Assembly: GCA_002286715.1 (NCBI GenBank)
Contig: NSJX01000006.1
Span: forward strand, 124,001-188,000
Length of the DNA: 64,000 bases
Origin: Dentipellis sp. KUC8613
Taxonomy: Eukaryota > Basidiomycota > Agaricomycetes > Russulales > Hericiaceae
Direction of reading: 5' to 3'
Shown: one piece after another, positions 19,199 to 23,632 of the stretch
How positions within the stretch are numbered: position 1 is the stretch's first letter
Layout of the letters: each line of letters begins with the position of its first letter
The notes under the pieces: model-generated
The model's database searches: none
The model's input: the letters and a program-made list of their open reading frames with translations, nothing else
Told to the model about the DNA's origin: nothing
Position numbers and translations under genes: made by a program

Positions 19199-22100
19199 CT
19201 ACTCATCCATAAATCGTACAGTCCTCCTTTTCTTCATCGGGGACGCTTCTTCCGTCCCACCCTCCGCCCGGGGCTGAAATCCTGTTCCTTCTAGCCTCGA
19301 AGGTCCCGCGACTGCGTTGTCAGACGCCGCCGCCATCACTGCATGGCTCTCCTGCTCGACGGAGACTGGCACTTCAGGAGCTGTTGGCGGAGGAGCGGGC
19401 TCCGGTGGGATATCCAGAAACGGAATATCCAGGCGCACAGACTCCGGACGACGAGTAAGCGCGTCTCCCTCGATGAATTTCGGATTCTGTGCTCAATATT
19501 CAGAACGCGCTCGCACGCAGGATCGAAGGACTACGACTCACGGCGATGAAGCTCCGCATGCGGAAGTCGTCCGTCACGTTCGCGTTCTGCTTCTCGCGCT
19601 GCGCCTGGTCTTTGAGCTCGGATCGGCGCGCCATCATCACTTCCTCGGCCGTGTTGCGGATGGCGAGTGTTTTTACTGCGGGTAATGTTAGGTCAGTCGG
19701 GCGCAGTGCGGGTTTGTTTGTGGGGAAAACTTACCACTAATAGGTCGCGTTTGCCCGATCCGATGTGCGCGCTGGTGGACAGTCACAATGTGAGTTACAT
19801 TCTGCAGCTCGGAGGGTAGACATACCTTGATTGCTTGTGCTTCGACGTCAGCTTGCCAAACTGGCTCACAAAATATTACTCTTGATGCTGAAACCAAATT
19901 CCTGCAAAATTTATGGTCAGTTCACTCAAACGAGATCAAGGAGCTGCCGAAATGCTCACAGGCCTCGAGATCCATGCTTCAGCTCCATGAGGAACACCCG
20001 GTATGTTTCGGAGGTCTCAAATGTGATGACCAGTTGCTCCCTCTGCTGCAGGGGTACTTTTGTTGTGTACTGAAGAAACTTGACATGTGCCAGGTTCAGT
20101 CCATCTGCAACATGTGCAAGTGTTAAGGGAGACTTGGAGAAGATGAGGAATTTCTCTGTTTTGGAGTACTGCAGGACCTGTCATGATGATGCAAAATCAG
20201 AAGGTGGCAAAAAAGGGTAAGATAAATTTGATTTAATACCTCATTCAGCAAATAATCAAGCTTGACAGATGCAGAGTTTCCAATGTGGACATTGGCCAGA
20301 GGTGAAGCCAGTAAGAATGCTCTTCTCTGAGAAGAGACACCACTGAGAGGAAGATCTGCAATTGGCTGAGTGAGTGATTCATCCACAGCTGCAGGGGCTT
20401 CTGAATGTCTAGCAGTATCAGTGGCCTTGAGAACCTCTCTCTGGTCTTCTTCTTGATGCTTGGATTTTGCCTGCTTCTTAGCCCTCTCAGCCCTCTCCAT
20501 CAAAATCAGAAAAAGTCTTTTCTCCTCTTCTATAAATGTAACTCCTTGTTCAATGAGACTATCTGTTGAGATGAGTGGGTGTGCTGCCACAATGGCTCTG
20601 AGCTTGGCAATCCGAGAGGGGAACATGAGTCCTGATAAAGTTGTGCTGCTGCTGTGAGATGCAAAGGGCATTTCTGACCAGGTGTGAAATATGGCTGTTG
20701 GCATGTCTGTGATGGTGAATGGGATATCAGGGAATGGATGTTTCTGCACCCAGCACCAAACAGAGTTGGTTGCAGCAAATGTACTGTTCAAATATAATTA
20801 TAAACCACAAAGACAAATAATGGAGGGAGATGACAAACATATGTCTGATTGCATCCTTGATTAGCTTCAGATCAGATGATGAAACACCTCTTTCTGTGGC
20901 TTTCTCCACCATTGAAGGGGAGGCTTGACAGAGCTCTTCAACATTGAACAAATTTTCATCAACATGCCAGAACATCAGTCTACAAAAAATAATGAGACCA
21001 TATAGCTGATGGAGAAGAAAATAAAATTTACTGTGACATGTTCTCAACAAGCTGCTGTAAACGAGCAGCATTCTATTAGAACAAGTTACATTAGCATGCT
21101 ACTGGAAAACAGAGAAATTGGACCACATACTGAAGAATGGAATAGATAATCCTGGGAGAAAAATATTACTGTAAATGAAGAAGGTCATATTTTGAGAAGT
21201 AATATATACTCACTTGATCTACCCTTTCAGAATCAACTGCATTAATTGCAATAGCACCTTGGAGTGCATTGTAAGAAATTGCTGCAAGTGGATGCAAGTC
21301 TAGCAGAATTGTTTCATGTCTGAGAGGAGGAAGAACAATATCTTTCTCAACATCTGCAATTCTACATGATCACATTATTGGTCAAGCATTGATCATTATT
21401 AGAGGGAGACTTACTGATGCCTAATCATGACACTCTGCATCACCTGTTCCAAGATCTGAATAGCTCCAGGCAGAGGCCCATTTACTCCAAACAAAGGCTG
21501 AATGACATGGGTATCAAAGAGAGAAGGCAGATTTGCAAACTGGGGTACTTTGAGGAAATAAGCAATCATCTTCTTGAGCTTCTGGAGATTGTCACGATCT
21601 CTTGAAGTCCACACTCTAGCAACCTGTCCACCAACCTCCAAAAGCTCATCCTGACCCAAGTCCACATTTGAAGCTTGTAACAAACCCTCTTCAGAAGGAT
21701 ACAGAAGGTCCCAGCCATTTTCATCCAGGAGTTCACTATTTGAACCAAAGCTAAGCCCAAGCAAGTTTGTTGTGGGTGTCCCAGACACAAGCCAGCGACG
21801 TTCAACAGTCAGAAGCTGAGCAACCATGCTAATCCTGGTTTTGTCATTGCCATGAACATGACCTTCATCAACCACCAGCCTCTTCCATCTGAGTTGTAGC
21901 AAAGGAGAAACACCAGGAACAATGTCACATGAGCAGTCAGGGATTCTGGTATCTTGATATGGTGGACAACTGCACATTTTCCATGAATGGAGTTTGTGAG
22001 TGTCTGCCTTTGCAGCTTCTTTTGCAAAGCCTAACATATCATAAGCCACCAAAAGGTAAAAGAGTGAAGATACTCACTATCATGATTCAGCAAAATAATC

Positions 22101-23632
22101 TAGGAGATACCAGATTCATGACAGAGAACAATATTTAATTTAAGGCAATACATACATCATAATATGAAGCAAGATGTCTTGCTCTTGGTAACTGTTGCTG
22201 AGGTTGTACAATTAAAACACGTACAGATGGGTCACAGTGCTTCTGAATTTCTGATGACCATTGCCCAAGAAGATTTGGAGGGACAACAACAAGGGTTGCT
22301 GATGTCAAATACACAACACAAGGCCCGGGATCTGAGGAGTTTCTCCTAGCATGCAGCTTGAAGTTGGCATTATTATGTTGATAGTAGAAAGGGCTGTTGA
22401 GTTCCAATGGGATCCAGTGGTTGGCAAGCTCACCAGAGTCTTCATAGTGTCGCAGATGTAGCCCATCAGGATGGACTCTGATATAATGCAGAAGGGTTTC
22501 ATATAAAGTAGGAATAGATAACCCAGAACCAGGGCTGCCACCAGACATTTTCTTCCTGACACTTTGCACCTGTTCACCATGAAAATGGCATAAAGATATT
22601 GGTGTCAACACTGGCCTCACATCATCACATGATGGTTCAGGCTTAGATAGCTGGTCAACTGTAGCCAGGATGAGTGCAAGACACATAACAGTCTTCCCAG
22701 TACCTGCCAAGAGTCAAATGATTAAGATATTCACACAGAAATGTTTTGCAGCATATACTCACCAAGTTCTTCACAAAGGATGCCACCCTTGACTTGTGAA
22801 ACCATAGGCTGGTCTTTCAACAGCTCCATTGTGCCTGGCTGAAGATAAAAGACAGATCCATCCAGACCTGAAAGTGGGATATACAGAGGATCAGGGATGT
22901 CCACAGGCTGAAGCTCCTTCTGCAGCATGGCTGCCACTGTCTCCCTCTGGTATGGATAAAGCCTGCTATGCAAGCCTTCAATATCTCCTCCACTGAGGAC
23001 ATGCTGGATTAGAGGTCCACCATGGCTGTCGGACGGCGGATGTATGCGTGGAGAAGGAAGATCGCTATACAGCTCCGCGAGGCTTCGGTTGTCCTTGAAT
23101 ATCGTGAGTAGGACCCAGACTTCTCGTATACAAACGGACGTACCACATCGTTATTGAAGAACGGTGTTCGCGAGCCAGATGGCTGCGCCATGTCGTCCGC
23201 GTACCAGGTATTTCGGTCGCGCATGATGCTCGGAAGAACGGCGCGCAAAGCCAGACGCGCCGGCCGCATGACTTTCACTTCGTTACGATTTCGCAGTTTG
23301 CCCCGCACGCCAGCAAGGTCAAATGGGATCAGATATATGCGCACGTACAGTTGGTTTTGCGACTGTCCGAGCATGCAATGTGCTACCAAGAACTCGTTCC
23401 GTATCAAGAACTCCAGACGACGACAAAGGGCCTCATCTTCGGCGTTTGCGAGGCATGGAATGACCTGCTCGGAGCGGAAATACGACCATCCGTCTTCTGC
23501 TTGCGGCAGCTCGTGAAGTGAGCAGTTCGGCGAAGTGGAGAGTGTGATAGCGCCCGCCGCAAGAAGTTTGGACGTCCGGTAGGGGTCAGAGAGGTTGTCA
23601 TTGGTGACGGTGTCGCGTCCCAGGCTCTGCAT
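19199..23632 (-). CDS. SNF2-family ATPase/helicase (Rad5/HLTF-like lobes, no RING)
   Basis: Fifteen exons on the minus strand: 23144-23632, 22763-23093, 22156-22703, 22078-22099, 21415-22030, 21214-21361, 21131-21151, 21032-21072, 20839-20979, 20240-20783, 19960-20177, 19826-19901, 19735-19771, 19542-19675, 19199-19486. All phases close, giving 1217 residues. Motif I is EELGTGKT (~271-278), motif II DEGH (518-521), motif [12 protein letters not shown], and motif [17 protein letters not shown] (~1062-1076). [17 protein letters not shown] patch (483-498) could bind zinc. DEGH is typical of Rad5/HLTF-type SNF2 proteins, but I see no RING between the lobes. Probably a nuclear DNA translocase acting on chromatin or damaged DNA. 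Exons of 21 and 22 nt occur. Residues ~186-1020 are encoded by CpG-depleted DNA. Confidence 0.85.
20011..23026. other. CpG-depleted block inside the SNF2 gene
   Basis: By eye I found only 8 CpG dinucleotides in about 3.0 kb, near 20613, 21062, 21595, 21796, 21799, 22220, 22326 and 22451. Two stretches of ~575-600 bp (20011-20612 and 22453-23026) have none. Flanking DNA within the same gene has one every 10-20 bp. Arg is encoded almost only by AGA/AGG in the block and CA/TG dinucleotides are frequent. Both edges fall inside exons. Confidence 0.9.

Follow-up and report, generated by a model that had tools for sequence, protein, structure and literature searches.

The window analysed here is a stretch of 64,000 nucleotides from contig NSJX01000006.1 of the basidiomycete Dentipellis sp. 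KUC8613, and it carries on its minus strand a gene for an SNF2-family ATPase (19191..23632). The gene has 15 exons and encodes a protein of 1217 amino acids. As the original prediction had claimed, its exons, splice sites and helicase motifs are intact, and the hand-built model is identical over the full length (100%) to the deposited protein DENSPDRAFT_795695. The interior of this gene, from within exon 2 to within exon 11, is nearly devoid of CpG dinucleotides (a cytosine followed by a guanine). Only eight CpGs are left in the 3,020 bp of this CpG desert (20010..23029, as delimited by a two-edge model), and similar deserts are found in two genes for DNMT1-type DNA methyltransferases of the same genome.

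The SNF2 gene and its CpG desert

By its domains and motifs, the protein belongs to the SNF2 class. The SNF2 domain (PF00176) covers residues 211-553 (118.8 bits), the Helicase_C domain (PF00271) covers residues 960-1071 (47.6 bits), and both the Walker A and the DEGH motifs are present. Across the 40 aligned orthologs, the GTGKT and DEG columns are invariant, and the histidine of DEGH occurs in at least 90%. RAD5 is the closest match among solved structures. Of the other proteins, 119 among the matches listed share 39-51% with the SNF2 protein, and the named ones are mostly from what we take to be the Agaricomycetes. When the genome of Dentipellis sp. KUC8613 (34.1 Mb, 171 contigs) was searched for copies and families, the DNA of the block returned only its own locus, and no close paralog of the protein was found.

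Within the block from 20,011 to 23,026, the ratio of observed to expected CpG (O/E) is 0.057, which is not near the surrounding value, the whole window with its 5,620 CpGs having an O/E of 1.09. The content of guanine plus cytosine (GC) is 0.43 in the block and 0.57 in the window. TpG and CpA taken together are in excess (O/E 1.51), as was expected if CpG had been eroded. When the block was subjected to mononucleotide shuffling 2,000 times, 139.5 CpGs were obtained on average and 107 at the least (Poisson p ~1e-48), and so the earlier statement that eight CpGs remain in about 3.0 kb, where more than a hundred are predicted, is confirmed. Two runs of about 575-600 bp had also been said to lack CpG. 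The longest CpG-free runs in the block are indeed 604, 579 and 533 bp; elsewhere in the window, they reach at most 100 bp. The nine introns lying wholly within the block contain no CpG at all.

The sharpness of the edges and the CpG-rich gene parts on both sides, likewise asserted beforehand, are evident from the counts per 200 bp. At the right edge, there are 23 CpGs outside and 0 inside, and at the left edge, 7 outside and 0 inside; the left edge was supported anywhere in 19,847-20,010 when the fitting range was widened. The CpG-rich 5' part (23030..23632, minus strand) comprises exon 1 (23632-23144) and the start of exon 2 (23093-22763), with the said 23 CpGs in the first 200 bp beyond the edge. 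The CpG-rich 3' part (19191..20009, minus strand) extends from the end of exon 11 (20177-19960) through exon 15. Both edges are located inside exons, and thus the change is carried by the gene itself. The only repeats around the block are one weak direct pair and one weak inverted pair, and no match of the window to an RNA family reached the gathering score.

The eight remaining CpGs lie in 20613..22452 on the minus strand, seven of them in arginine CGN codons and the eighth at a CCC/GGG codon junction. Three (22220, 22326 and 22451) are in exon 3 (22156..22703, minus strand), which begins with the GTGKT Walker A motif and lies entirely in the desert. Three more (21595, 21796 and 21799), all in arginine CGN codons, are in exon 5 (21415..22030, minus strand), which carries the DEGH motif and the invariant residues R511 and R514, encoded by AGA and AGG. 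The other two are at 20613 and 21062.

CpG decay and the arginine codons

The nature of the base changes was examined at silent sites, where NNY codons were scored by the next base and NCR codons by the kept G, so that CpG could be compared with six non-CpG contexts, namely C before A, C or T and G after A, G or T. In the SNF2 block, CpG is kept at only 2/230 silent CpG sites. NNY codons before G keep C at 2/140 sites, as against 38/58 in the flanks, and NCR codons keep G at 0/90, as against 39/65. C is kept before C at 41/112 sites of the block and before T at 37/86, and none of the six non-CpG contexts differs between block and flanks at p <0.05, the lowest p being 0.078 (C before C). The CpA preference of ascomycete-type repeat-induced point mutation (RIP) is not seen either, as C is kept before A at 71/105 sites in the block and 25/35 in the flanks. 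The change in the SNF2 gene is, therefore, CpG decay; it is neither a general shift towards AT nor RIP of the CpA type.

The use of arginine codons was compared between block and flanks of the SNF2 gene. The comparison of orthologs was made at the protein level, with 40 proteins selected from the 120 listed of 250 matches. The block has 29 AGR and 7 CGN codons, whereas the flanks have 4 AGR and 34 CGN, in agreement with the earlier remark that the arginine codons of the block are almost all AGA or AGG. Where arginine is conserved in at least 36 of the 40 orthologs, AGR is used at 9/11 positions in the block and CGN at 10/11 in the flanks. Deamination cannot convert CGN into AGR, and hence, the shift must have come about slowly under lasting pressure and not in one burst.

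Arginine has also been lost from the protein. Among the columns with arginine as the consensus, the Dentipellis protein keeps 19/35 in the block and 16/17 in the flanks, while the other orthologs keep 0.81 of the block columns on average, with a minimum of 0.56. The 16 columns lost in the block now hold histidine (3), cysteine (3), glutamine (2), lysine (3) and others (5). Counted over residues 95-1125, Dentipellis has the lowest arginine share of all 40 orthologs in the block columns (0.043; the next is 0.062), but in the flank columns its share of 0.124 is above that of every other ortholog. The nine other Russulales have shares of 0.071-0.086 in the block columns, inside the range of the remaining orthologs, and with such ordinary relatives, the arginine-poor state of the SNF2 protein looks specific to the Dentipellis lineage.

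Two DNMT1-type genes and the rarity of deserts

Loci of cytosine-5 methyltransferases (C5-MTase) were chosen for inspection as methylation was the hypothesis. The C5-MTase domain (PF00145) has five places in the genome, and deserts occur in two of these, DNMT1a (locus L066) and DNMT1b (locus L067). According to Pfam, both possess the replication-foci domain PF12047, the BAH domain PF01426 and the C5-MTase domain, and they are thus of the DNMT1 class; the PCQ columns are invariant in both alignments. The deposited DNMT1a protein is flagged as partial. The desert is about 3.6 kb long with 9 CpGs in DNMT1a and 4.7 kb long with 11 CpGs in DNMT1b, with sharp edges in both. The three desert loci are C128:142-149 kb, which contains the SNF2 gene, C128:626-636 kb and C22:524-534 kb.

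Silent sites were scored slightly inside the fitted edges (4549-8099 of L066 and 4311-8838 of L067). DNMT1b keeps CpG at 1/201 sites of the NNY-before-G kind and 0/104 of the NCR kind, and DNMT1a at 0/105 and 1/61, respectively. When the three desert genes are pooled, the counts are 3/446 (flanks 137/181) and 1/255 (flanks 122/172). As in the SNF2 gene, most coding CpGs that remain are in arginine CGN codons (8/9 in DNMT1b and 5/6 in DNMT1a). Loss of CpG to TpG and CpA with the other contexts spared is found cleanly for the SNF2 gene only among the three. Outside the desert of DNMT1a, at L066 8139-9517, the GC content rises to 0.76 and C before G is kept at 88/104 silent sites; one gene, thus, presents both extremes of CpG.

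In DNMT1b, consensus-arginine columns are kept at 14/26 in the desert and 2/3 in the flank. The arginine share of its desert part is 0.035 in Dentipellis sp. KUC8613 and 0.038 in D. fragilis, and 0.056-0.064 in four others. Thirteen arginine columns are lost in either Dentipellis species, and as nine of them are common to both, the DNMT1b desert is probably older than the split of the species. For DNMT1a, 13 of 18 matches were aligned, five shorter ones (691-967 amino acids, one a partial record) being excluded. Here, the arginine share of the desert part is 0.049 in both Dentipellis species, and one of the 11 other rows is lower (0.042). The DNMT1a protein of Trametes gibbosa (P0134) has an arginine share of 0.042 and a share of histidine, glutamine, cysteine and tryptophan of 0.150 in the part that is desert in Dentipellis, which is more extreme than in Dentipellis itself; the DNA of this fungus of another order may hold a similar desert.

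For the comparison of loci, a CpG-free run of at least 300 bp was counted as a desert. The loci examined amount to 294,716 bases, and the sampled gene loci measure 3-4 kb each, so that some genes are only partly covered. After the merging of overlaps, 26 other gene places were available, namely 11 SNF2 places (from 12 loci taken out of 59 genome matches), 3 methyltransferase, 6 MutS, 4 Rad51-family and 2 SRA places. Such a run is present in none of the 26, nor in any of 20 arbitrary 1.5-kb slices of the Dentipellis genome, where no CpG-free run exceeds 101 bp. The contrast of 2/2 DNMT1-type places with 0/26 other gene places gives a Fisher p of 0.0026 (calculated by hand, with the SNF2 gene excluded as the starting point). 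If the fifth C5-MTase locus, L018 (C92:79475-82594), is DNMT1-like, the count for DNMT1 becomes two of three. This locus has normal CpG; four of its frames match only PF00145 in Pfam, with no replication-foci or BAH match, and the one frame tried against solved chains gave no match.

Other groups of genes were considered and rejected as targets. The deserts do not extend to the methylation machinery as a whole, as the two SRA places and three C5-MTase loci are normal in CpG. Besides L018, these are L016, which is DNMT2-like, and L014, which is DNMT5-like: its methyltransferase piece matches the solved chain of Rad8, which we take to be DNMT5, with an E of 2.6e-79, and an SNF2 domain follows 3 kb further. 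Targeting of meiosis genes as a general rule was provisionally dismissed as well, the CpG-free runs in the six MutS and four Rad51-family places all being shorter than 300 bp. Loci L046 and L053 are presumably MSH4 and MSH5 by their motifs, the search of solved chains confirming the MutS family only. Spill-over from transposons onto the SNF2 locus was also rejected, since 0/24 reverse-transcriptase matches fall on the contig of the window, C128.

CpG-free runs of at least 300 bp are found in 3/24 reverse-transcriptase places (343-651 bp), and a further one, L041, is partly depleted. The three runs measure 651 bp in L068 (2740-3390; C145:81740-82390), 519 bp in L020 (581-1100) and 343 bp in L031 (110-450), have a GC content of 0.36-0.40, and are probably old methylated DNA on the side of transposons. 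Matches to RNA-dependent RNA polymerase lie in two opposite orientations at C128:46877-55899, 68-77 kb before the window start, with further places on C106, C113, C115, C122 and C89. There are also nine matches to TET/JBP dioxygenases (seven above the family cut-off), for example at C171:11484 and C46:15781, and thus enzymes of the demethylation type may be present beside the methylases.

Probable long-held methylation, its rivals and known systems

The block is probably the footprint of CpG methylation held for long in the germ line on the inner part of the SNF2 gene, with deamination proceeding under purifying selection. This explanation had been offered with the original prediction, and it is supported by the loss at silent sites of CpG only, the cleared introns, the replacement of arginine partly by histidine, cysteine and glutamine, and the AGR codons at conserved arginines. 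We infer the long duration from the arginine codons, and 5-methylcytosine would be the cause. DNMT1-type enzymes and/or DNMT5 would keep the patch methylated. Deamination of 5-methylcytosine, or a linked RIP-like CpG mutator, would then remove the CpGs while purifying selection would keep the protein. Given the sharp edges, the borders would be fixed by something stable, and not by free spreading; candidates are chromatin, small RNA and the limits of a former duplication. The two DNMT1-type genes with the same scar suggest that the SNF2 gene is one of a set of targeted genes, probably a small one, that includes methylating enzymes. The SNF2 protein may itself act together with DNMT1 or DNMT5, and the earlier hint that it could be a methylation cofactor is strengthened by these two genes. 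How the genes would be targeted, and why those of DNMT1 would be affected, we likewise infer.

Several observations weigh against this explanation. Pooled over the three genes, 4/701 silent CpG sites are left, as against 1068/1954 in the other contexts. On the assumption of near-balance and an equal back rate, CpG loss would have to exceed its back rate by a factor of about 170, with a lower 95% limit of 68; set against the non-CpG ratio, the factor is 82-210. Decay of 5-methylcytosine in vertebrates is 10-15 times, and a 15-fold rate would leave about 52 silent CpGs, not the four found. The decay needed thus exceeds the vertebrate rate, plain deamination may be an incomplete account, and so near-total a loss suggests that poor repair of 5-methylcytosine damage or a RIP-like CpG mutator contributes. 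Furthermore, non-CpG silent contexts are also lower in the desert, in 5/6 cases for DNMT1a (relative to a very GC-rich flank) and 1/6 for DNMT1b. In the pooled data, four of the six differ at p <0.01, the strongest drop being C before C (147/401 vs 62/98, p 2e-6); in the DNMT1 genes, an influence not confined to CpG, or a shifted background, would therefore be at work. DNMT1a has no clear erosion of arginine, with consensus arginine kept at 18/24 columns in the desert and 7/10 in the flank. Lastly, most reverse-transcriptase loci, which are expected targets of methylation, have normal CpG.

Among the rival histories, one supposes that the inner segment was once duplicated, that a process like RIP or MIP (methylation induced premeiotically) marked exactly this segment, and that the copy was lost while the mark persisted or mutated the segment in a burst. 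The sharp exon-internal edges would be accounted for, and CpG-directed RIP-like mutation or CpG-biased C-to-T change is described for basidiomycetes (PMC4352252, PMC4457147, PMC5870257). However, the duplicated target of RIP and MIP was not found where searched: the SNF2 block has no second copy and its protein no close paralog, and most of the DNMT1b desert returned its own locus and one 35-bp match only, the DNMT1a desert not having been searched. A duplicate may have existed in the past. A burst would also make stops from CGA and could not make AGR at 9/11 conserved arginines, and a separate duplication would be needed in each of three genes. We consider this history unlikely, and the same applies to silencing by stage, in which the genes would be methylated in the mycelium, opened only in sexual tissue and mutated by the mycelial methylation. 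The mycelium of mushrooms is the germ line, and the CpG-rich starts of all three genes could act as a switch; yet the two putative MSH4 and MSH5 loci have normal CpG, and methyltransferase genes are described as expressed in the monokaryotic mycelium of Pleurotus (PMC5974365).

That the methylation genes purged their CpGs by selection, so as to evade their own enzyme, would connect the DNMT1 genes with a chromatin ATPase. It is nevertheless very improbable, since the 5' ends, where silencing would count, are still CpG-rich, the introns are cleared as completely as the exons, and escape should have spared conserved arginines, of which 16/35 are lost in the block. Least credible is that a CpG-poor allele or paralog replaced the block through introgression or gene conversion, or that the assembly is in error. 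Sharp edges would be expected, and the position of Dentipellis differs between the trees, which were built from 24 of the 40 aligned rows: in the block tree it is sister to the other nine Russulales (97/93), and in the flank tree it stands beside the Russulaceae (weakly, 82/69). Still, the trees place the block (100/100) as well as the flank (99/99) inside the Russulales, the branch lengths of 0.64 and 0.80, respectively, are ordinary, both edges lie within exons of one collinear protein found in one copy, and the codon habits outside CpG resemble those of the flanks. The replacement raised as an alternative in the original prediction is thus disfavoured. Compared with a recent burst, with introgression or with an assembly error, long germ-line CpG methylation under purifying selection is the better fit.

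The eight CpGs that remain across 3 kb leave little room for CpG methylation today, and the desert may by now be mostly a scar. A bolder proposal is that Dentipellis directs methylation and mutation at its own DNMT1 genes and the partner SNF2 gene, as a self-targeting gene-body set with borders fixed since before the species split and continuous CpG mutation of RIP-like strength, which may have started as an autoregulatory brake and would now be burning out. This is put forward tentatively, as a possibility. The passive scar is the sober alternative, and any autoregulatory role would be nearly worn out, so few CpGs being left.

The significance lies in the near-complete erosion of CpG in conserved, intact genes, including the DNMT1-type enzymes that probably write CpG methylation. 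If the explanation by long-held methylation is true, a fungus can maintain a mutagenic epigenetic mark over very long periods on fixed portions of genes that still function, and such genes would be natural recorders, with the borders of the deserts and the use of arginine codons dating the duration and precision of the mark. A literature search at the level of titles and the first parts of abstracts did not turn up any description of CpG deserts for the DNMT1 or SNF2 genes of fungi.

Gene-body methylation of animals and plants resembles the Dentipellis case in that conserved genes are concerned, the 5' end is spared and the body is cleared of CpG. Dentipellis differs in the few sampled genes affected, the near-total silent loss and the sharp edges. 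A cleared body, a spared 5' end and an intact conserved gene are found in all three genes at the level of sequence, the deposited DNMT1a being partial. Fungal DNA methylation is chiefly described as marking transposons. Gene-body methylation is said to be absent from most fungi or negligible as a rule, with named exceptions (PMC7862722, PMC13297926), and in two Pleurotus species, genic regions with small-interfering-RNA clusters are reported to be highly methylated (PMC5974365).

In basidiomycetes, CpG-type decay is described for transposons (PMC4352252, PMC4457147), and the C-to-T signature at CpG is attributed to a MIP-like methylation process with Masc2-like (DNMT1-type) enzymes (PMC4352252). 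The Dentipellis deserts share this signature; unlike the transposons described, the targets are intact genes without a second copy where searched, and their switched arginine codons needed time. In Zymoseptoria tritici, the extra copies of dim2 are reported to have become non-functional, as has the native allele of many isolates, and amplification together with RIP is held not to be a full explanation by itself (PMC8016269). There, as would hold for Dentipellis, a DNA methyltransferase gene is the target of genome-defence mutation, but both DNMT1 genes of Dentipellis remain open.

The methylation kept by DNMT5 in Cryptococcus is similar in being an epigenetic state that has persisted for millions of years at the same loci. 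It is located on transposon-rich, mainly centromeric DNA, whereas the deserts of Dentipellis lie in the bodies of genes.

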